DNA of 23,433 nt from a virus: positions 1-23,433 of IMG/VR virus record IMGVR_UViG_3300021437_000084. One strand, given 5' to 3'. Both the position numbers and the translations under genes were made by a program. Below the pieces are notes generated by a model. The model was not told the DNA's origin, did no database searches, and worked only from the letters and a program-made list of their open reading frames with translations. Positions 599-22,028 of the stretch are shown piece after piece; position 1 is the first letter of the stretch, and each line of letters starts with the position of its first letter.

Positions 599-1768
599 TT
601 AAGGGGTTTTTCGAGCTTTTGACTTTTTTGGGGATGGATTTGGGAAGTTTTGCGGCTTGTCTTTGCCCAAGTCTATGCCCGCCTCTTTGTTAGGGTCGCG
701 GGATATGGCGGTGAAGAACTTCTCGCTGTCCCTCAAGTAGTGCATCATCATCACCTTGGGATCGTGGCCCATGGCGCGGGCAATGTCCGGTATCGAGTGG
801 CCGGCGTCCACCCAGTCGCGCTCGCAGCTTGCGCGGAGAGAATGGTGCGGGTCGCCATTCCAGACGACCCCTGCACGCCTGATTGCTGCCCGCGTGTTGC
901 GTCCGCATCGGTCGTAGCTGAGATTGTCACACGGGCCGGACGAGCCCACAGGGGCCGACTCGTAGGCCGCGAGAAGTGCGTCGTAGAGCTCCGGCCTGAT
1001 CGGGATTGTCCTGGCCCCGTGCTTGGTCGAGCGCTTGCGCGTGCCGTGTCTGTCCTTGCCCTTGAGGTTGATGATCCGGCGTTCAAAGTCGATCGCGGTC
1101 CACGGCAGGCGATCGGGGAAGCACTCGTTCAGTCTCAGGCCAGCCCAGCGACAGAGTTGCAGGAGTATCGGGTGTTGCTTGGCGCGGACGCCCGCGTGCT
1201 TCACGAGCTGTCTGAACGTCGCGTCCGTGATGTATGGAACTTCTTTGTCAACCCGAAGCGGCCCGCTCTTGAGCGCCTTGAACGGATTGCGCGAGAGATA
1301 CCCCCGATCGATCGCCCAGTTGCAGAACTTCTTGGCAATCGCGTTGTATCGCCTGATGGTGAACTCTGACAGGGGCTTGCCGCGGATGCCTAGGCGACGG
1401 CTTACGCTGGCCTCCCATTCGTCGGCGCGGGTGCGGGAAATCGCGTCGATGCGGGCACCGGCGCCAAAGAACTCGACGAGCGAGCGCATCACTGTGTCTT
1501 GGAGCCGGATCGTGCCAGTCGCGGCCGACGAGTACGCGGCCTCCATGCGCTCGCCCAGATCGCGGAAGGTCATGGCCTTGTGTTCGATCGCCTGCGAGTC
1601 GCTGCGCAGCCTGCTCGCATAATCGATGACGACCGCCCGCGCCCGTGCCCTGCTCAATTTCGCCATGGCGCCGAGTGATTTCGTGCGAATGACACCCTCG
1701 GGCGTGACCCATTTCATCTGCCAATATTTGCCGTTCCGAAGCGGTCCCCAGACTCGTAGTTCGCTCAT
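599..1768 (-). CDS. int: Tyrosine site-specific recombinase (phage integrase)
   Basis: This 389-residue protein is a typical length for phage integrases. An N-terminal arm-binding and SAM-like core-binding region (about 1-175) is followed by the catalytic domain. The expected residues are visible: Arg212 in the GLRLNE segment, a candidate Lys249, His309-x-x-Arg312 (HSLR), His335 in AMGHD and nucleophile Tyr344 in MMHYLR. It would cut and join DNA at the tRNA-Arg core, which starts one base past its stop codon. The ATG at 1768 is preceded by GGAGGAGG. The 88-base upstream gap holds a weak inverted repeat (GGTTAGGC at 1795-1802 with GCCCAACC at 1813-1820). The gene is transcribed in the same direction as the late genes and is the last one before the attachment core. 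The C-terminal tail after about residue 357 is basic, Lys/Pro-rich and probably disordered. Confidence 0.95.
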   Translation of the reverse strand: MSELRVWGPLRNGKYWQMKWVTPEGVIRTKSLGAMAKLSRARARAVVIDYASRLRSDSQAIEHKAMTFRDLGERMEAAYSSAATGTIRLQDTVMRSLVEFFGAGARIDAISRTRADEWEASVSRRLGIRGKPLSEFTIRRYNAIAKKFCNWAIDRGYLSRNPFKALKSGPLRVDKEVPYITDATFRQLVKHAGVRAKQHPILLQLCRWAGLRLNECFPDRLPWTAIDFERRIINLKGKDRHGTRKRSTKHGARTIPIRPELYDALLAAYESAPVGSSGPCDNLSYDRCGRNTRAAIRRAGVVWNGDPHHSLRASCERDWVDAGHSIPDIARAMGHDPKVMMMHYLRDSEKFFTAISRDPNKEAGIDLGKDKPQNFPNPSPKKSKARKTP

Positions 1769-2575: not shown

Positions 2576-3129
2576 TTGTAAATCAACTCCACTGTCACCC
2601 AGTCGCAGGTGCATACGTCCGAGCCCGTCGCCATATTGCAATAGAACACGAGATCCTTCGAAGTGGTTTGATCGATCGCCGGTGCCCCGCGCCCGCATAG
2701 ATGCGTGACGGTCCCGGTCGTGAACGACTTTGTGTGCACCTGATATCGCTGGGCGTTTGTCGCACCATCGCCCCAGAGATCAACCTCTTCAATCCAGTTG
2801 AGTGTCACGACGCCCGTATTTGCATCGAGCCGCGTGCCGCCGAATTTGACGCCCGTGAAGGTGCTGGACGATCCGGTGGTGTGCCGCATCCCCGCCTTGA
2901 TCCGAAGCCCGCGGTTGGTGCTCAGTGTGTTGGGATCGATCGGGATCGTCAATAGAACTTGATCGCCGGTCCCGGTCGCCGTCGTGTTCACCCGCTGCGC
3001 ATAGATCACGATCGGAATGTTGAGCCATGCGAGCACGCCGCTTGCCGCCCAGCTCAGGACCTGGCCGACGGATCCCGAGGTCGGCAACTTCATCACGGCC
3101 GAGCCGAATCTCAGGAGAGAGGCGATCAT
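2572..3129 (-). CDS. Tail-fibre / receptor-binding-like protein
   Basis: The ATG at 3129 overlaps the upstream stop (ATGA), giving 185 residues. Near the N-terminus, about residues 13-36, the pattern PTSGSVGQVLSW..SGVLAWLN matches the SGxxGQVLxW..G...W repeat common in phage tail fibres. The remaining roughly 150 residues are Thr/Gly/Val-rich with alternating hydrophobic residues, as expected of a beta-sandwich tip. They carry three cysteines near the end (CNM, CTC). The probable role is host-surface binding at the tail tip. The family assignment is by pattern only, and it could equally be another beta-rich virion protein. Confidence 0.55.
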   Translation of the reverse strand: MIASLLRFGSAVMKLPTSGSVGQVLSWAASGVLAWLNIPIVIYAQRVNTTATGTGDQVLLTIPIDPNTLSTNRGLRIKAGMRHTTGSSSTFTGVKFGGTRLDANTGVVTLNWIEEVDLWGDGATNAQRYQVHTKSFTTGTVTHLCGRGAPAIDQTTSKDLVFYCNMATGSDVCTCDWVTVELIYK

Positions 3130-3512
3130 GATGATGCTCGCGACGTGATGCTCAGGTCGATCCAGCACGCATAGTCGTTCAGTTGAATCGAGTACGCGTG
3201 CCGGCCGTGTGGCTTGACCATCGGCATTCCAACCGTGTCACCCTCTTTGAACTTGTGCATGTCCGGGCACTTGCCGCCGAGTTCCTGAATCAGCATCTGA
3301 ACCAAGACCTCGGGGGCAACCGCGTCGTCTACCCAGGGGACGGCGATGAGATCAAGATCCCGGCGCATCGAACCGTGAAGGGCGATCGCGTATCCGAGTT
3401 TCCGCGCAGTCTCGCGAATTAGCGGCAAGATCAGGGCGAAGAGCGCGGCGTAGTTGTGCGTGTCGCATTTTGACACCGCGGTGAACCCCGGAGCTAGCTG
3501 GGTCTCTGTCAC
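3126..3512 (-). CDS. Nucleotidyltransferase-like phage protein, 128 residues
   Basis: It starts with GTG at 3512, overlapping the stop of the holin-like gene (GTGA). The segment LGYAIALHGSMRRDLDLIAVPW (about residues 39-60) has the Gly-Ser...Asp-x-Asp layout of the nucleotidyltransferase fold. The C-terminal KPHGRHAYSIQL...WIDLSI (about 99-122) is also typical of a family of small phage and prophage proteins of unknown function often found near lysis or tail genes. The true substrate is unknown. Three acidic catalytic positions cannot all be assigned, so nucleotidyl transfer is not proven. Confidence 0.6.
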   Translation of the reverse strand: MTETQLAPGFTAVSKCDTHNYAALFALILPLIRETARKLGYAIALHGSMRRDLDLIAVPWVDDAVAPEVLVQMLIQELGGKCPDMHKFKEGDTVGMPMVKPHGRHAYSIQLNDYACWIDLSITSRASS

Positions 3513-3808
3513 TTATCGTCTCTCACGGATTTCTCGATCGCACGCGTGTTGATCGCCAGCGCCGTCGTATTCTGGTTCAGCGCGGTCGAGACCTTTTCCA
3601 TGATCTCGCCGTTCTTCTTTGCCATGCCCTCTTGGAAATCATGACAGCTCTTGCTGACCTCGGCGATCGAATCCACGGTCTTGCTATGAGAGTCCACGAA
3701 CTTGTCGATGAGGAACTTCAGCGCGGTCAGGAACATGCCGACGACGACGATCAGCGCTCCGATGCTTCCATATCCAACATACGAGGTCTCAGCTTCGGCC
3801 AACAGCAT
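3509..3808 (-). CDS. Holin-like small membrane protein
   Basis: This 99-residue protein has one clear transmembrane segment (about residues 14-36, SIGALIVVVGMFLTALKFLI), then a charged, heptad-like helical tail to the end. The tail contains repeated Asn-Thr-x-Ala segments around 79-88. Small one-helix proteins with coiled-coil tails next to envelope-acting genes are typical of phage holins or holin accessories that open the inner membrane at lysis. The ATG at 3808 has GGAG, which itself belongs to the last codons of the upstream gene (stop at 3812). A membrane protein with a different role is possible. Confidence 0.55.
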   Translation of the reverse strand: MLLAEAETSYVGYGSIGALIVVVGMFLTALKFLIDKFVDSHSKTVDSIAEVSKSCHDFQEGMAKKNGEIMEKVSTALNQNTTALAINTRAIEKSVRDDK

Positions 3809-3811
3809 CGC

Positions 3812-4795
3812 TTACTCCTTTGGCGCGGTGTCAACCGTCGCATTGATCAGCCCGGTCCACTGCGCCGCGGTCTTCGTGATCTGATAGCCGCCTACGAGCA
3901 CGATCCAGCCCTCGCGGCATCGCGCGATCTTCCACTCGTCGCTACGCGGAGAATTTTCGAGGATGAAGACCTGGCCCTTGATCTGGTTGAGCGGGATCCG
4001 CCACTCCTGACCGCTGCCGTCGAACAACTCGCTGGTGATAATGAAATCACATTCGGGATCCGCCGCCCACTGCGGCGCGTCGATCGACGGCGTGGGCTCG
4101 CTGCCGAATCGGGCGAACCCCATGCGCTTGGCGATGCACCGCACCTGCCAGCTATTCGAGGTCGGGCCCATCACGGCGCCCGCGTCCAGATATGGCGTGA
4201 AGTCCGGGACCGAGAGATACGGCGCGAGTTCGGCCTCGACGCGTTCCGCGAATTCCGTCGGTGTCATCGCCGCCCATTGCGCCTGATGCCCGTGATCGAC
4301 CGTCCCGAAATACGAACAGGGCTTGACCCCGCATTGCATTTGAAGCACGCGCAGCACCTGGCTGTAGGCCTTGGTATCTGCCAGCTTGTCGAATCCCATG
4401 TCCTTCGCCCGCTCAACACCATCGAACGGCATTTCCGCGTCGTCGCCCGCCGCGGTCTGCGATCGACCGAACGGCAGATGGAAAAACACGTGGGTTCCGG
4501 CTGGCGCTCGTCCGCCGTAGAACTGAGTGAGGCGCGGGATGAATGTTTTGCGGGCGGCCGCGACCCAGCCCTCGGTCCGCACCTGATAGTTTGAACCAAG
4601 GTTTTCCAGATCCGCGCCCGCGCCACAGGCAAAGAGCAGTTCGATATGTCCGGGCGGCCGCGAGGCGACGGTCGTGACCGTGGTCGGCGGCGAGGCGGCG
4701 GCGGGCTTTGGCGCGACGAACACCGCGAAGAGCACGAAGAATGCGACGAGGACCACGAGGACGATGAGGATGAAAGACGTGAAGCGACGAGCCAT
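3812..4795 (-). CDS. Membrane-anchored exported protein with predicted alpha/beta-barrel layout; candidate lysis protein
   Basis: The 327-residue protein starts with a basic MARR and a strongly hydrophobic segment (about 7-30). That segment is followed by Ala-Ala-Ala-Ser and a Pro/Thr-rich linker, so it is either a cleaved signal peptide or an N-terminal anchor. The rest has a repeating strand-helix order: HIELLFACG, THVFFHLPFG, CSYFGTVD, PYLDAGAVMG, FARFGSEPTP, CDFIITSELFD, GQVFILEN and GWIVLVGGY. This resembles a (beta/alpha)8 barrel such as a glycoside hydrolase. Asp and Glu residues sit after several predicted strands, but no family signature is certain. It lies between a lipoprotein gene and a holin-like gene, with a terminator-like hairpin in front, and no other endolysin is visible. 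I infer a possible wall- or surface-sugar-degrading role. A virion or superinfection function is an alternative. Confidence 0.5.
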   Translation of the reverse strand: MARRFTSFILIVLVVLVAFFVLFAVFVAPKPAAASPPTTVTTVASRPPGHIELLFACGAGADLENLGSNYQVRTEGWVAAARKTFIPRLTQFYGGRAPAGTHVFFHLPFGRSQTAAGDDAEMPFDGVERAKDMGFDKLADTKAYSQVLRVLQMQCGVKPCSYFGTVDHGHQAQWAAMTPTEFAERVEAELAPYLSVPDFTPYLDAGAVMGPTSNSWQVRCIAKRMGFARFGSEPTPSIDAPQWAADPECDFIITSELFDGSGQEWRIPLNQIKGQVFILENSPRSDEWKIARCREGWIVLVGGYQITKTAAQWTGLINATVDTAPKE

Positions 4796-4867: not shown

Positions 4868-5233
4868 TTACTTGGGGGGGCCAGTGCTGGGCGCGGCGGG
4901 TGCCGTAGTCGTGACGCCCGGAATGCTGATGCGATCGGTCAGCGACTTGAACGCATCCCATCGCTTGGCCTCGACCTCGACATTCGCCTGCAGCGCGGCC
5001 GCCGGGTCCACCGTTGCATCCTTGATCTCGAGCAATCGATGCTCGCCGGTCTTGGCGTTCGTGTACTCATATTTGGCGTTGTAGTGACCCGCTTTAGGCA
5101 GTTCGGCCGTGTCGTTGCCAATCTTGATCTGAGAGGCAGTGGGAGGACCGTTGCACCCGAGCATGACGATGGTCAGGGCTGTGGACGCGAGCACGATAAG
5201 AATCTCAACAAATCGAATGGATCTAAAGGACAT
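4868..5233 (-). CDS. Small lipoprotein (possible outer-spanin-like or surface protein)
   Basis: The start at 5233 is fixed by a perfect AAAGGAGG five bases upstream and gives 121 residues. The N-terminus is a classic lipoprotein signal: MSFRSIR, then a hydrophobic stretch (about 8-25), and the lipobox MLGC with the modified Cys at residue 27. The mature part is polar with one central charged region (EIKDATVDPAAALQANVEVEAKRW, about 71-94) and ends in a Pro/Thr/Ala-rich tail. A small lipoprotein beside a holin-like gene suggests an envelope-disrupting (o-spanin-like) or superinfection-exclusion role. It lacks the very short proline-rich form of Rz1, so the function is open. Confidence 0.75.
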   Translation of the reverse strand: MSFRSIRFVEILIVLASTALTIVMLGCNGPPTASQIKIGNDTAELPKAGHYNAKYEYTNAKTGEHRLLEIKDATVDPAAALQANVEVEAKRWDAFKSLTDRISIPGVTTTAPAAPSTGPPK

Positions 5234-5265: not shown

Positions 5266-5658
5266 TCATGGAACGCCTTGTGCTGATCCTCGGGCGGAAC
5301 CTCGATCCAGCGCCTTCCACTCGGCCTTAAACCGCTCCCACAAATCGCGCGTCGAGCGCGGACAGCCGCAACCGTCGTAGCTCGATGGTCTGTGATGCTT
5401 CCAGTTGAAGGCCCAGATCAGCAACCTGGTCCAGTACGGAACTCGATAGATCTTGATCTCGCCATCGAGCACGCTGGTGATGCCTGTGTCGTCCGTGAAC
5501 TTCTCGCGCGGACACCCGCGGCGGCCGACGACTGGCTGCAGATCGATCGTGCAGAGCGTGACTTTCGCCGCGCGATCGTGCAGGGCATCGGGACACGCCC
5601 AGCACATGGCCGCGACCTCCCGCTGACTGATCGGGCAATCGCCGTTGCAACAGCTCAT
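5266..5658 (-). CDS. Cysteine-rich protein, 130 residues
   Basis: The ATG at 5658 overlaps the stop of the upstream cysteine-rich gene (ATGA). Cysteines are concentrated in two groups: MSCCNGDC...CWAC (residues 3-22) plus CT and GCP in the next thirty residues, and DGCGCP near residue 98. The middle reads as a beta-helix stretch (GEIKIYRVPYWTRLLIWAFNW). A zinc-binding or disulphide-stabilised fold is likely. No named family is recognised. Coupling to the 435-residue cysteine-rich protein suggests a joint tail-tip or cell-contact function, which is inference from order. Confidence 0.65.
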   Translation of the reverse strand: MSCCNGDCPISQREVAAMCWACPDALHDRAAKVTLCTIDLQPVVGRRGCPREKFTDDTGITSVLDGEIKIYRVPYWTRLLIWAFNWKHHRPSSYDGCGCPRSTRDLWERFKAEWKALDRGSARGSAQGVP

Positions 5659-6962
5659 AGCAGATCTCCGGCGAGTCCCGAGGGCCCGACGCCGCCGGTC
5701 CCGACCTCGCGCGAGCCACAGGCGCGGGCGAGAAGATCCGGGCAGTTGGCGACCGCGCCCGGTGCGCACGGATCGATGCGGTTGATCGAGAAGCTGCCTG
5801 AGTGCGTTCCATGCCCCCAGACCTGCAGCGCGCGATGGATGTTCGTGAAGGGCTTGACGAATCGCTTGTTGTCATACGTGAACGTGAAGCTCGCCCCGGT
5901 CTGGGATATCGCGACGCTCCAGGTGTAAGTCACTTCGTTCAGATACTCGCCTTCGAACGGCCCGCCGCTCTGTTGAAAGACTGTGTTTGAACACCGACTG
6001 AAGTCGCCAGTTCCCAGCCCGATATCGCCGATCGTGCCGACCGGCATCAGGCGCAGTATCGCATCGCGCGAGGTGTTCGCCAGCACCGTCGCGATGCCCG
6101 TCGCCATCTGGGCAAAGATCGCATTTCTGAGCAGCGTCGCGTGTCCGCAATGTGACGGATATTGAGACACATAGATAGCGTCCGGATTGTTCGGGTTGTC
6201 GCTATTGTGGCTGGCCGAGGCCTCGCCCTCGAAGTTCATGCCCGTGAGCTGGTGGACGCTGACCTGCACGCGCGTCGTGCCATTCCATTTCCAGACCATC
6301 GTCGAGTGGTTGCATGTCCCATCGTCCTCGGTACAGACGTGCGTCGAGTTTGCCGTGTAGTCGCGGGTGACCGTCGTATTCGAGATCTCGCCGCGCTGGA
6401 TGCCGCCCGTCGTGTCGTACTGAATCGAGCTCGAAGTACCGGTGCCAGACGACTGCGTGTTGTAGGTCGATCCACAGTGTCGGCAGAACTGGTGATAACA
6501 ATCGTTGATGATCGCCGTGTCGCAGCACTCTTCGCACGCGAGGCACTGTTGACAGGTGGCAAGCGTCGGATTCTGGAACGTCGCGACCGGCAGCGCCCCG
6601 TAGTTGAACACATAGGGGCAGCCGGCCGGCACGAAGCACCGGGAGCAATTGCGGTCCAGAACGTAGCACGCCTCGGGGTCGGTCCCGAATCGGATGAGGC
6701 GGCAGGGCGTGAGCTGCGCATCGTTCTGTGCAATCCACTGGGCCCAGGTGACACCGGGCGAGACAAACGCGTTCAAGTCGATGCGGTAGAACCCTTGCGG
6801 GATCTGGTCCGTCGGACACTGAGGACAGAACCGATCGCACTTGCGGCGCAGCACCGGACCCGGACAGCGACGACAGCACCGCGCGATGCACGCCGCGGTA
6901 TTCACGATGACCCGACCGCCGCGGATCATCACCTTTCCGGCCTTGGTCAAGATCGAGCTCAC
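5655..6962 (-). CDS. Large cysteine-rich virion/tail-tip protein
   Basis: It starts with GTG at 6962, overlapping the upstream stop, and has 435 residues. The N-terminus, KVMIRGGRVIVN (residues 9-21), leads into a dense cysteine cluster (ACIARCCRRCPG, KCDRFCPQCP). A second cluster follows at about 100-118 (ACYVLDRNCSRC, GCP), then a zinc-ribbon-like block at about 135-168 (CQQCLACEECC...CYHQFCRHCG). The C-terminal half is Ser/Thr/Gly-rich and beta-like, with scattered cysteines and a final CAPG...CPD...C group. The position among tail genes behind the tape measure suggests a tip or fibre protein stabilised by metal or disulphides. I cannot name the family. Similar cysteine-dense openings occur in planctomycete phage-like proteins, by memory only. 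Confidence 0.65.
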   Translation of the reverse strand: MSSILTKAGKVMIRGGRVIVNTAACIARCCRRCPGPVLRRKCDRFCPQCPTDQIPQGFYRIDLNAFVSPGVTWAQWIAQNDAQLTPCRLIRFGTDPEACYVLDRNCSRCFVPAGCPYVFNYGALPVATFQNPTLATCQQCLACEECCDTAIINDCYHQFCRHCGSTYNTQSSGTGTSSSIQYDTTGGIQRGEISNTTVTRDYTANSTHVCTEDDGTCNHSTMVWKWNGTTRVQVSVHQLTGMNFEGEASASHNSDNPNNPDAIYVSQYPSHCGHATLLRNAIFAQMATGIATVLANTSRDAILRLMPVGTIGDIGLGTGDFSRCSNTVFQQSGGPFEGEYLNEVTYTWSVAISQTGASFTFTYDNKRFVKPFTNIHRALQVWGHGTHSGSFSINRIDPCAPGAVANCPDLLARACGSREVGTGGVGPSGLAGDLL

Positions 6963-16307: not shown

Positions 16308-17063
16308 TTACTCTACCGAAAGCACACGCTTCGGCAGATCGATTTCCAACGGGGCTTTCGCCCCTGGCACTGAAAGTATACCACGATTGAGATGCGTGAG
16401 CCCAAGGGCGATCGCCGACTCGCGTCGAATCTTGCCCTTGGTGACCAGCGACTCGATGAGCGTGATGGATTTCTGCTCGGCCTCGGACGGCGCGAGGATC
16501 GCGCGGCACGAGACGTTGCAGGGCATGGCCGTCAGGCTGAGTTCAACCCAGCGCCATTTGCGGACGATCGACCGGGCCATCGGATAGGCCTTGGCCTCGT
16601 CCAGCTCAAGGTCTCCCCACTCGGTTGCCTCGAAGCCGATCGAGACGCCGAGCTGGCCGCCTTGCTTGATGATCGTGTAGCAGTCGTCGGCCAACGGTGA
16701 CCGCATCGAATGGAAGAGACCGGCGCGGAATTCCCAGCCCTTGCCGTTCGCGGCCGGCCGCACATAGCGGATCGAGCCCACGACCTGGGAGATCCCGTAG
16801 CTGTGATCGGCGTAAAGCGTACGGGTAGCGTTGATATACGTCAGGTCCGCGCCCTCGGGCAGTACGACCTCGCTCGATTCGTCCACGTCGTCGGTCGTGG
16901 CGATGCCGATGATGTCGCGGTCGGTCCCCGCCTCTTTGAGCTTCAAGTGGGTCTGAGAAACGCCGATGGCGCCGACGCCCCCGCCCTTGGCCCATTTGTA
17001 TTGAGCGTGACGCGAGCGAAGTGCATCCTGGAACATGACGCCCGCCATTGCATTAATCGGCAT
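16308..17063 (-). CDS. Prohead protease (HK97-type serine protease)
   Basis: The start at 17063 is chosen for its GGAG seven bases upstream and an 11-base overlap with the portal stop; it gives 251 residues. The herpes/HK97 protease pattern is visible: RTLYADHSYG with the likely catalytic His87, and QLGVSIGFEATEW with the likely catalytic Ser141. The WVELSLTAMPCNVSCRAI segment follows (about 177-194). It cleaves the capsid precursor during head maturation. It lies between portal and capsid genes, the usual order. The C-terminal 40 residues after KSITLIESL are variable. Confidence 0.85.
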   Translation of the reverse strand: MPINAMAGVMFQDALRSRHAQYKWAKGGGVGAIGVSQTHLKLKEAGTDRDIIGIATTDDVDESSEVVLPEGADLTYINATRTLYADHSYGISQVVGSIRYVRPAANGKGWEFRAGLFHSMRSPLADDCYTIIKQGGQLGVSIGFEATEWGDLELDEAKAYPMARSIVRKWRWVELSLTAMPCNVSCRAILAPSEAEQKSITLIESLVTKGKIRRESAIALGLTHLNRGILSVPGAKAPLEIDLPKRVLSVE

Positions 17064-19362
17064 TGGTGTCTCCTGAGTCGAAATCACAGACGCAGTTGGG
17101 GTGCGCCGGTGGATACATGATGTCGCGATCGATACCGGGGAATTCGCCGGCCGTGGCGAACGGCTCATCGATCGGAATCGAGCCGCCTTTGGCCGCTACC
17201 TTGGCGTAGATGTATTCGCAGATCGCACATGGTGCACCGCCCAGGAACCACTTCTTGGTCTTGATCCCCGCGTCCTTCATGCCCGCGAGCGTGCCCATGC
17301 TTGAGGCGTTTGCGCTCTCGGTGCGTGCAATACGCTCGGCCCTGACCGCCGGGTATCCTGAATCCTGAATGTCTTTCGCGATGTCCGCGTAGGTCTTGCC
17401 CTCTTCGAGCCCGATCGAAATCGCCTGCCTGATGTCGTCCTGGGTCTTGCCCGCAATCTGCTCGATGACGAGTGCACCCTCTTGCTTGACGGCATCGAGC
17501 GCGTCGACCGGCGCGAGTGGCGGCATATCCGTCGGGCGCTCGATGTTGACGGCCGTCGCAAACGCCTCGGCCATGTTGCGGTAGACGATCTTTTCGAGTT
17601 CCGCGTACTGGGCTTCCGTGAGCTCGGCGAAACCCGCGCCGATGTCCTGGGTGACCGCCGCGAGCCACCGCTGGATTTCGATCTGCATCTTCGCCGCGAC
17701 GTCCGGGTTCGGCGGCATCTTGTCCTTGCGGCCAGCGCGACATGATCCGCATGAGCACGACGCGCGATGCTTTGAGGCCTGCGGAACATCTGCGACCGGC
17801 GCGGGCTCGGGCTTCGCCGGTTCAAAGTTCTTGAGCGGGTTGAAGATCTCGTTCAACGTCGCGTCGTCAATGGCGGGGAATGCGGCGTGCGCGATTGCCC
17901 GTGCCGTTTCCAGCGGGAGTTCGTTTGCCGCGACCTGTGCGGCGAGCCCAGCGAGTGACGTCACCTGTGCACCGTTCAAGCTTGTGTCAACCGTTGTCGT
18001 ATCGGCGTTCACCTGATCGGTCGCCGCGGTGTCCACATTGCCGGGCAGCGCTGGTTTCTTCGCGTCGGTCGCCGCAACATCGATCGCGGGTGCGTGGCTC
18101 ACGGGTTGCCCAGCGATGCGCGGTACGTCGCCCCCGAACTCGTCGGGATATGGATCAAGCCCGAGACAGGCGCGGGCCTCGTTCAGCGTACGCACACCGC
18201 TATCGGTCTGCGTCTTCAGGATCGTGGACTCCGCCGCCTCGTCCTCCTGGGCCACTGCGTCATACGCATAGAACTCTGTCTCGGCAATGAGCCCCACACG
18301 GCGATGTTGCTCGGTGAGCTGATCGGCATCGCGACACAGGCCAGGCCAGATCGTGATCTCGTTGTAGAACCTCATGGCGGCCTGGGCAGCGGCCAGCGCT
18401 CCATCGTTGGGGTAGAAGATCGCTTTGGGAATGCCGAATGCCGCGAGGATCATCTGCTCGCTGACGTTCTGTCCCGCGAGATACTCCATCTCCTTCGGGC
18501 TGAACCCCAGCATCTTGACGTCAACCGCCTGACCATAAAGCCAGTTGCCGGTGTTGCGCACGCCCCGCACCTGATCGCGCATTTTCTTGACCGCGAGGTC
18601 GAACTGCTCATCCGTCATCTCTTTCGGCAGCGACGCGTACGCCGGCGGCCGCCCATCGTTGTTCCACCGATCGGTCTCGGACTTCAGGGCGCTGCGCATC
18701 AGATCCGCGTGCTGATAGCAGTTCGCGGTCGGCCCATAGCCCCAGAACGGATCGTGGATCGATGCACGGTGCTTGAAGTGCATCACCTCGTCGCGCGGCA
18801 GATCACGCTCGGCCACGCTCTCGCGGCCATAGCGCCAACCCCAAATGATCTCGCCCGACCGCGAGGGAATGACGTTCATGAATTGGGGACGAAGCGTAAA
18901 GCACTGATCGTCTGTCCAATTGTTGAAGGCGTTTCCGCAGGCCCATCGACCATAATGACGCAAGTAGTTTGCGTCGATGCCAGACTCGAAGTCGTTAGGC
19001 TTCTCCAAGATAGCGAGGCCGGGGGAGCTAAATACCTCGGTCGCTTCTTCCGTTGCGTACTTGGATTTACTGCGCGACATCTGAAGGGATTTGAGACTCT
19101 TCGGAGAGAGGCGCTTTCCTTTGCCATACCGAAAGAGCCTGATCTTTGCGGACGTCTGAAATGTCGCGTTCTTATCAGCGCACGTCGCGACCCAGCCAAA
19201 GAGCCGGGCGATGTACTCCTGACCGGGTTTGATCTGCCACTTCGAAGACTGCAGCTCGCTCTGCGTGACGTTCATCGCGACCCACTGCTCGCGCGTCTTG
19301 CGGCCCGATGGGGGAACGGCGAGGGCCAAGGCAGATTGACCGATGGAGCGGATGAGGTTCAT
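17053..19362 (-). CDS. Portal protein fused to a MuF head-morphogenesis domain
   Basis: The ATG at 19362 overlaps the upstream stop (ATGA) and gives 769 residues. Residues 1 to about 400 are a phage portal of the HK97 type (VATCADKNATF near 58-68, then GWRYGR...DEVMHFKHRASIHDPFWGYGP, WLYG, AAFGIPKAIF). A linker with a helical segment LAGLAAQVAANELPLETARAIAHAAFP (about 468-494) and a small CSCGSC cysteine knot (536-541) follow. The C-terminal region is a MuF domain with TESANASS, the CxxC pair 712-715, GGSIPIDEPFA and PPAHPNCVC (751-759). Separate genes in most phages are here one protein, so DNA entry and minor-head functions are joined at the portal vertex. The MuF end is related to the fragment at 1-381. 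Confidence 0.9.
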   Translation of the reverse strand: MNLIRSIGQSALALAVPPSGRKTREQWVAMNVTQSELQSSKWQIKPGQEYIARLFGWVATCADKNATFQTSAKIRLFRYGKGKRLSPKSLKSLQMSRSKSKYATEEATEVFSSPGLAILEKPNDFESGIDANYLRHYGRWACGNAFNNWTDDQCFTLRPQFMNVIPSRSGEIIWGWRYGRESVAERDLPRDEVMHFKHRASIHDPFWGYGPTANCYQHADLMRSALKSETDRWNNDGRPPAYASLPKEMTDEQFDLAVKKMRDQVRGVRNTGNWLYGQAVDVKMLGFSPKEMEYLAGQNVSEQMILAAFGIPKAIFYPNDGALAAAQAAMRFYNEITIWPGLCRDADQLTEQHRRVGLIAETEFYAYDAVAQEDEAAESTILKTQTDSGVRTLNEARACLGLDPYPDEFGGDVPRIAGQPVSHAPAIDVAATDAKKPALPGNVDTAATDQVNADTTTVDTSLNGAQVTSLAGLAAQVAANELPLETARAIAHAAFPAIDDATLNEIFNPLKNFEPAKPEPAPVADVPQASKHRASCSCGSCRAGRKDKMPPNPDVAAKMQIEIQRWLAAVTQDIGAGFAELTEAQYAELEKIVYRNMAEAFATAVNIERPTDMPPLAPVDALDAVKQEGALVIEQIAGKTQDDIRQAISIGLEEGKTYADIAKDIQDSGYPAVRAERIARTESANASSMGTLAGMKDAGIKTKKWFLGGAPCAICEYIYAKVAAKGGSIPIDEPFATAGEFPGIDRDIMYPPAHPNCVCDFDSGDTNAD

Positions 19363-20126: not shown

Positions 20127-20315
20127 TTAGCTTGTCGCTCCCGGTTTCTTAAACTGCGAGAAGAGCAAAGGCGCGAGCAGCACGACGAACGCCAGCGCGA
20201 AGCCAATGAACGGCCTGCAGTTGAAGCCAAAGCCCCAGGCGATCGCGGCTGACGCCAGCGCGAGCACGAAGAGCAGGATGAGGAGGCCGACGATGTTCTC
20301 TGTGTGTTTCACCAT
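20127..20315 (-). CDS. Small two-helix membrane protein
   Basis: The ATG at 20315 is chosen for its close GGAG and a seven-base overlap with the terminase stop; it gives 62 residues. Two hydrophobic helices (about 8-28 and 34-53) are joined by GFNCRP, with a basic tail (FKKPGATS). This could be a holin, a superinfection-exclusion factor or a membrane anchor. The position between terminase and portal is unusual for a lysis gene. Confidence 0.65.
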   Translation of the reverse strand: MVKHTENIVGLLILLFVLALASAAIAWGFGFNCRPFIGFALAFVVLLAPLLFSQFKKPGATS

Positions 20316-21556
20316 GTACTCCTGCCAACGGGCTCCCACATTGATTCGTCATGCTCGAGCGAAGTTCTGACGGCGGCGGTTCCGCCCACGATGCGCGGCA
20401 TCGGCGTGCGACCCATGCGGCTGAACTTGTGCCAGGCCATTGCGGCCGCACACACGCAGTCGTCGTGCATACCCCTCGGCGCCTCGTAGCGCACGCCCGA
20501 GCGGGTGTACTCGTACTCGAAGAGTTCAAGCTCTGAGCGGATGACGTCGGTCGAGAACTTGAAGCGGTTGGTCTGGATGCCCGCCGCGAGCCCTTCCATG
20601 ATCTGCTGTTTGCTCGTCTGGCTGAACTTGAAGGCCTCGATGCCGAACCGCGAGTTGTGCTGCAGCTCTTCGACGATCGGATCACCGACGCCCGTCGCGT
20701 CGGCAATGGCCGGTGCATCGAGCTTGTCCATGATGCGGCGCTTGGTATCGCCCCACGGTCCTTGCCAGCGATCGAAGTAGCACTCTTGACCGTTGCCATC
20801 GAGACCGATGACAACCGTCCAGTCCTGGGACTTCGCGAGGTCGATGCCGTAGACGACTGGTTTGCCCGGCACGATCGGACCGAAGCACGCGGCGATCGCG
20901 GCCATGCCGAAGGGATTGCCGCCGTTGTCGGCCGGGATGCCCTCGAACTCCTGGGCGAAGACCTCGGGTGGTAGTTCGCGGCGTGCGTCTTCGATTTCTT
21001 CAGGGTCGATCGCGGGGTTCGTCGCTGTCGGCATCCTGAAGCTGGCCCAGTTTGGCTTGCCCTGTGCCGCCCGCTCGAAGAACGCATGGAACTCGCGGCG
21101 ACCTTTGGGCGTGCCCAGAAACCAGCCCTCGCCCTTGAAGTCGGCGAGCGTCGCGCGAATGGAGCTATTCCAGATCTCGGTGAGGGACTTGACGAGTCCG
21201 CCCTCGTCGATGAAAACTTTATGATACTTACGTGAGCGGCCCGGATCCGGCGTGTCCATCGTCCAGCATTCGATAACCCCTCCGCCCATGACCTCGATAC
21301 GTTTTTCCTGCACGTTACTGGCGACGAGCACGGGCGCGAGGATCTTGAGCATGTCGCGCCATGCTTCCATGAGATACTTGTACGTCGGTGCGAACCAGCC
21401 GATGAGCTGGCCTTCGATTGCCCCTTCGCAGGCGAGCACGACGCCAAACAGCGTCTTTCCCCAGCGCCGCCCGCATTCGAGAACGTTGAATCGTTTCCGA
21501 CCCCGGTAGACCGAGATCTGGCCCGCGTGCAACGATGGCAGTTCAACTGTCAGCAT
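20309..21556 (-). CDS. terL: Terminase large subunit
   Basis: The start at 21556 follows GGAGG by seven bases and overlaps the upstream stop; it gives 415 residues. The ATPase part has Walker A GRRWGKT (29-35), Walker B KVFIDE (113-118) and the coupling motif GTPKGR (148-153). The C-terminal nuclease has Asp240 in YGIDLA, Asp287 in ADATGVGDP, and Asp366-Asp367 in GMHDD. It cuts concatemeric DNA and pumps it into the prohead through the portal. Gene order fits: small-subunit candidates upstream and portal downstream. Confidence 0.95.
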   Translation of the reverse strand: MLTVELPSLHAGQISVYRGRKRFNVLECGRRWGKTLFGVVLACEGAIEGQLIGWFAPTYKYLMEAWRDMLKILAPVLVASNVQEKRIEVMGGGVIECWTMDTPDPGRSRKYHKVFIDEGGLVKSLTEIWNSSIRATLADFKGEGWFLGTPKGRREFHAFFERAAQGKPNWASFRMPTATNPAIDPEEIEDARRELPPEVFAQEFEGIPADNGGNPFGMAAIAACFGPIVPGKPVVYGIDLAKSQDWTVVIGLDGNGQECYFDRWQGPWGDTKRRIMDKLDAPAIADATGVGDPIVEELQHNSRFGIEAFKFSQTSKQQIMEGLAAGIQTNRFKFSTDVIRSELELFEYEYTRSGVRYEAPRGMHDDCVCAAAMAWHKFSRMGRTPMPRIVGGTAAVRTSLEHDESMWEPVGRSTW

Positions 21557-22028
21557 CGATGGCCTCCGGTGCATGGAGGCGATTGACGTGGACGACACGA
21601 ACCGTCTGATTGTCCGTGGACTTCCCAGTGTCAAGGCGATCGTTCTTGTCCTGGGCAAGATCGTCGGCCTGATGCTGGCCCTCCATCATCGCCGCGGTCT
21701 TCGCGATGCTGATGAGGACCTTCGCGCCGTTGAGCGGATCCGAGACCGTCGCCGGCGTCTTCAGCGCCATCTCGCGCGCGGTCTTCAGATCCTCGACGAC
21801 CTGATCTTTGAACTCGGCGGTCAAACCTCGCCAACGCCGCGGCCATCGCTTCGTCGCCTCACGGACCAAGCCCCGATCCCGCTCGTTCGTCATGTCGAGC
21901 GAAGACTTTGCCCCTCCCGCCGCAGATCCCGCCCGAGGCTCTCCTTGAGAAACCGATGACGCGACGGTAGGATCAATCTTTGTTTGATCTGCGTTAGCCG
22001 CATCGGTCTGGTTCTGCCCTTCGCTCAT
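21543..22028 (-). CDS. Probable terminase small subunit, 161 residues
   Basis: The start at MSEGQNQTDAAN (22028) gives 161 residues and a 35-base overlap with the upstream gene; a longer version reaching 22139 would run through that gene. The N-terminus is low-complexity (Asp/Ala/Ser/Gln). The middle (about 53-111) is helical with RDRGLVREATKRWPRRWRGLTAEFKDQVVEDLKTAREM and a second helix VLISIAKTAAMMEGQHQADDLA. It lies directly before terL, the usual place of the small terminase that recognises the packaging site. No HTH motif is definite, so this is by order and helical make-up. Confidence 0.55.
   Translation of the reverse strand: MSEGQNQTDAANADQTKIDPTVASSVSQGEPRAGSAAGGAKSSLDMTNERDRGLVREATKRWPRRWRGLTAEFKDQVVEDLKTAREMALKTPATVSDPLNGAKVLISIAKTAAMMEGQHQADDLAQDKNDRLDTGKSTDNQTVRVVHVNRLHAPEAIDADS

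Follow-up and report, generated by a model that had tools for sequence, protein, structure and literature searches.

The interval 3812-4795 is a genuine coding gene, and its 327-aa product is best read as an envelope protein tethered to the membrane, encoded in the late operon and possibly part of a lysis cassette; the results identify it neither as a wall-degrading enzyme nor as a barrel. The gene lies in an IMG/VR record of 23,433 bases, a linear fragment without end repeats, which was analysed over its whole length (the window). Here a minus-strand run of genes leads, from right to left, from the terminase through a portal-MuF fusion, a protease, the capsid and the tail genes to the integrase at 599-1768. 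In order of transcription, the Cys-rich genes at 5655-6962 and 5266-5655 are followed by the gene of a predicted lipoprotein, the 327-aa gene, the gene of a protein with one transmembrane (TM) segment, a nucleotidyltransferase (NTase)-like gene, small genes and the integrase. The features considered in this analysis are the following:

3812-4795, minus strand: the gene of interest, 327 aa, with a predicted TM segment at residues ~5-28, a Pro-rich linker at ~29-48 and a putative exported domain at ~49-327
4868-5233, minus strand: upstream neighbour, a predicted small lipoprotein or exported protein, with a lipobox-like VMLGC and the ribosome-binding site AAAGGAGG
3509-3808, minus strand: downstream neighbour, a 99-aa protein with a single N-terminal TM segment (hydropathy up to 2.47) and a long helical tail
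3126-3512, minus strand: a small nucleotidyltransferase-like protein, with the motif HGSxxRDxDLIAxPW (PHROG 35913, E 2.5e-16)
599-1768, minus strand: a tyrosine integrase, which closes the late region (Pfam PF00589, E 4.2e-8)
5266-5655, minus strand: a small Cys-rich protein, encoded by the final gene ahead of the predicted lipoprotein (open reading frame and codon bias)
5655-6962, minus strand: a Cys-rich, probable tail-end protein (open reading frame and position past the tail genes)
20309-21622, minus strand: the large terminase, TerL (Pfam PF03237), used as the query for finding relatives

A minus-strand open reading frame coincides exactly with 3812-4795, in agreement with the original prediction, which had left the strand unstated; its product is 327 aa long (MARRFTSFILIVLVVLVAFFVLFAVFVAPKPAAASPP...). 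The GC content by codon position of this gene (0.62/0.49/0.79) resembles that of terL (0.59/0.48/0.79) and of the capsid gene (0.61/0.42/0.82), and the overlapping plus-strand frame has an anticoding profile (0.79/0.46/0.60). A ribosome-binding site, GGGAGG, is found upstream of the ATG, and it is from this site and from the codon-position GC that the gene can be considered real.

The N-terminal membrane segment that had been proposed for the product is clear: residues 11-29 have a mean Kyte-Doolittle hydropathy of 3.17, which is strongly hydrophobic, and a helix at residues 2-27 is the sole well-predicted part of the AlphaFold model. Since the Arg-rich start MARR precedes the hydrophobic segment, the N-terminus is probably cytoplasmic, and the domain behind the Pro-rich linker, some 280 residues long, would lie outside the inner membrane. 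The core of the segment contains 3 small or weakly hydrophobic residues out of 20 and no Gly, and because of this composition, together with the high mean hydropathy, it looks like a permanent anchor.

Searches with the 327-aa protein gave no catalytic-domain match to known endolysin families in Pfam, PHROGs and NCBIfam, no glycoside hydrolase family in Pfam even at a permissive cut-off, no solved structure and no defence model. The sole sub-threshold matches were ExbD (E 0.31, in the TM region), DUF3405 (E 0.25, a fragment) and PHROG 12058 (E 0.75), a family to which no function is assigned. No relative was retrieved with the whole protein among viral and genome contigs, or with a fragment among viral contigs, in a scan that demands exact 8-residue matches and so misses distant kin. 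The same was true of tblastn against phages and plasmids, and of HMMER against 50 records of related viruses and, within a single bacterial phylum, 398 genomes, where four matches at E 0.008-0.0095 per genome correspond to the chance expectation over that many genomes. A syntenic homologue, sought among the terminase relatives, was not found either. It should be noted that these negative results depend on a limited search depth.

Concerning the fold, the original prediction had described eight strands in the order of a TIM barrel. These were segments recognised by eye (residues 50-57, 102-108, 159-166, 202-209, 228-233, 249-255, 275-280 and 297-303), and the pattern is not above chance by a Chou-Fasman scan, which is a weak test: it found 10 strands and 6 strand-helix alternations against 8.6 and 6.0 in shuffled sequences, values reached by 28.6% and 62% of the shuffles, respectively. 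The structure prediction that had been proposed as a check gave a low-confidence answer. From a single sequence, AlphaFold reached a mean pLDDT of 42 with the full-length protein and of 37.5 with the exported domain alone, placing strands at about five of the eight segments with pLDDT <50 across nearly the entire domain.

The prediction had also relied on the fact that no known endolysin is visible in the window. This is true for the proteins scanned, none of which matched a peptidoglycan hydrolase family in Pfam, PHROGs or NCBIfam; targeted searches of the record for glucosaminidase and destabilase were empty, and a regular-expression scan of the window for lysozyme-like motifs returned nothing credible. 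As support, this absence is uninformative. The record extends just 1.8 kb beyond terL on the upstream side. The terminase is 45-51% identical, over most of its length, to those of the 18 nearest IMG/VR records, and two of the nearest (G004 and G007) carry a Destabilase (PF05497) gene 8.5-9.3 kb upstream of terL:

L186:3693-4085 (G004) and L187 around 1797-2186 (G007): an i-type-lysozyme-like gene (PF05497, E about 1e-8)

Its product in G004 has 130 aa and a hydrophobic N-terminal signal; among solved structures its matches are invertebrate-type lysozymes (8bbu, E 2.4e-10; also 3ab6 and 4pj2). The two copies are nearly identical and therefore count as one lineage; in the other near relatives no recognisable lysin was found among the frames scanned. 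A search of the literature for i-type lysozyme-like genes in phages found little, and destabilase domains are listed among predicted lysins in PhaLP 2.0 (PMC13237592). Since two of the nearest relatives have their lysozyme-like gene about 9 kb upstream of terL, at a distance from the tail genes, the absence of an endolysin from a linear fragment such as this one carries no weight as evidence.

The gene had further been placed between a lipoprotein and a holin-like gene. The position is correct. The lipobox of the 4868-5233 product is imperfect and its ribosome-binding site strong, and the holin-like protein at 3509-3808 has one TM segment and weak matches to PHROG 3999 and 1009, families to which no function is assigned. 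Neither Pfam, PHROGs nor phage sequences gave a match for the former, and tblastn against phages gave none for the latter. With regard to the adjacent holin and spanin genes of a lysis cassette, both neighbours have a fitting size and membrane features, and their matches are to PHROGs without function or to nothing. The NTase-like gene overlaps that of the one-TM protein by 4 bases, and its product is judged nucleotidyltransferase-like from its motif. It has 110 relatives in IMG/VR and matches in 43 phage records, where it is annotated as hypothetical protein; proteins of PHROG 35913 occur across phages of Caulobacter, Rhizobium, Vibrio, Erwinia and others. Because it is spread over many phages that are not related to one another, and the genes upstream of it differ, with no regular lysis context, it is not a marker of a lysis cassette.

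Upstream in the order of transcription, the 5266-5655 protein has no family match in Pfam or PHROGs, and Cys-rich proteins are placed likewise in two relatives (L170 and L172), as the pair at 5266-6962 is here. From the Cys-rich tail genes and the style of the integrase, we suspect that the host is one of the Planctomycetota. Portal and MuF are fused in one 769-aa frame (17053-19362, minus strand; PF04860 and PF04233), whereas in Halorubrum phage Hardycor1 they are separate genes. At the left edge, an open frame entering on the plus strand (1-381) encodes a second MuF-like C-terminus, which shares 58.6% identity over 70 aa with the portal-MuF fusion of the opposite strand and perhaps belongs to a neighbouring related prophage or to a rearranged end.

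The original prediction had put forward a candidate wall-degrading enzyme, and this can be imagined in more than one form. A new class of TIM-barrel glycoside hydrolase, acting as the phage endolysin and held at the membrane until lysis, would agree with the eight candidate strands in order, several of which end in an acidic residue (the Asp of YLDAG and the Glu of FGSEP, ITSEL and ILENS), and with the five or so strands present in the low-confidence models; we consider it unlikely, since the strand pattern falls within the shuffled range, AlphaFold without an alignment yields no confident fold, and no glycoside hydrolase appears even among sub-threshold matches. Quite improbable is a related form in which the protein, as a barrel hydrolase without known family, would remain tethered permanently and open the wall from there, so that lysis would need no release of the enzyme. 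A SAR endolysin, which leaves the membrane once a pinholin has dissipated the proton motive force, would account for a membrane segment that follows two basic residues and has an exported domain behind it. Nevertheless, of the 20 residues in the membrane segment of Mu gp22, a proven SAR endolysin, 10 are weak (PMC9239132), against 3 out of 20 and no Gly in our protein, whose mean hydropathy is that of a permanent anchor; a segment rich in weakly hydrophobic small residues is thus not what we observe, and this reading is disfavoured and very improbable. With the missing endolysin uninformative and the segment lacking SAR-like weak hydrophobicity, the case for a lysis enzyme is weakened, and what still favours it is position and size.

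A tethered role in a lysis cassette is the likeliest single reading, although a tentative one. The 3812-4795 product would be made together with the late genes, beside the predicted lipoprotein and the small one-TM protein, and would target the host envelope at a late stage of infection, perhaps as a hydrolase. The genes from the tail to the integrase are co-oriented and have ribosome-binding sites, the neighbours show membrane or lipoprotein features, and among the predicted membrane-bound or exported products encoded between tail and integrase the 327-aa protein alone has the size typical of an enzyme; moreover, exported wall-lytic enzymes exist in near relatives, as the signal-bearing lysozyme-like protein of G004 indicates. 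Against such a cassette, the protein resembles no hydrolase, nor anything else in the collections searched, and in the relatives what comes after the Cys-rich gene is a stretch reaching first a tail-fibre-like gene and next recombination genes (functions assigned by eye). The single lysozyme that can be recognised in the group lies outside the tail-to-integrase stretch, and the contexts of the NTase-like gene are varied rather than regularly beside lysis genes. Ranking close behind, and nearly as likely, is a non-lytic envelope protein of the inner membrane, serving superinfection exclusion or lysogenic conversion, with the true lysis enzyme encoded in the missing flank. The interval between tail and integrase is the usual place for accessory genes of these kinds, and an orphan sequence with a permanent anchor, the accessory-type NTase-like neighbour with its scattered contexts and the distant lysozyme-like gene of the two relatives all suit this role; the flanking predicted lipoprotein and one-TM protein, however, fit a lysis cassette too. 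That the gene comes directly after the tail genes could also point to a virion-associated or tail-assembly protein crossing or residing in the host membrane, but this is hardly likely, a strong N-terminal anchor being unusual for a virion protein and no relative having a homologue of the gene among its tail genes.

If the tethered cassette protein were indeed the opener of the wall, it would be a tethered lysin of a new class, in an environmental phage group for which no cultured near relative was found. For now, 3812-4795 is another orphan, a late gene from an environmental phage or prophage.

Compared with known systems, the product shares with SAR endolysins such as Mu gp22 (PMC9239132) an N-terminal membrane segment behind basic residues, an exported domain and a late-gene location, but its segment is strongly hydrophobic and it lacks known muralytic domains and catalytic motifs. 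The likeness to the (beta/alpha)8-barrel wall glycosidases (GH25 lysozymes and GH3 NagZ, PMC6403190) consists only of the strand order seen by eye and of acids at several strand ends; in contrast to those barrels, it has neither a Pfam match at a permissive cut-off nor a confident fold. The Destabilase protein of G004 and G007 differs in being a recognisable lysozyme, of 130 aa in G004 against 327 aa here, encoded far upstream of terL and without a copy in the window. Both proteins are nevertheless exported, or predicted to be, by means of an N-terminal hydrophobic segment, and both come from phages that belong, by their terminase, to the same group.
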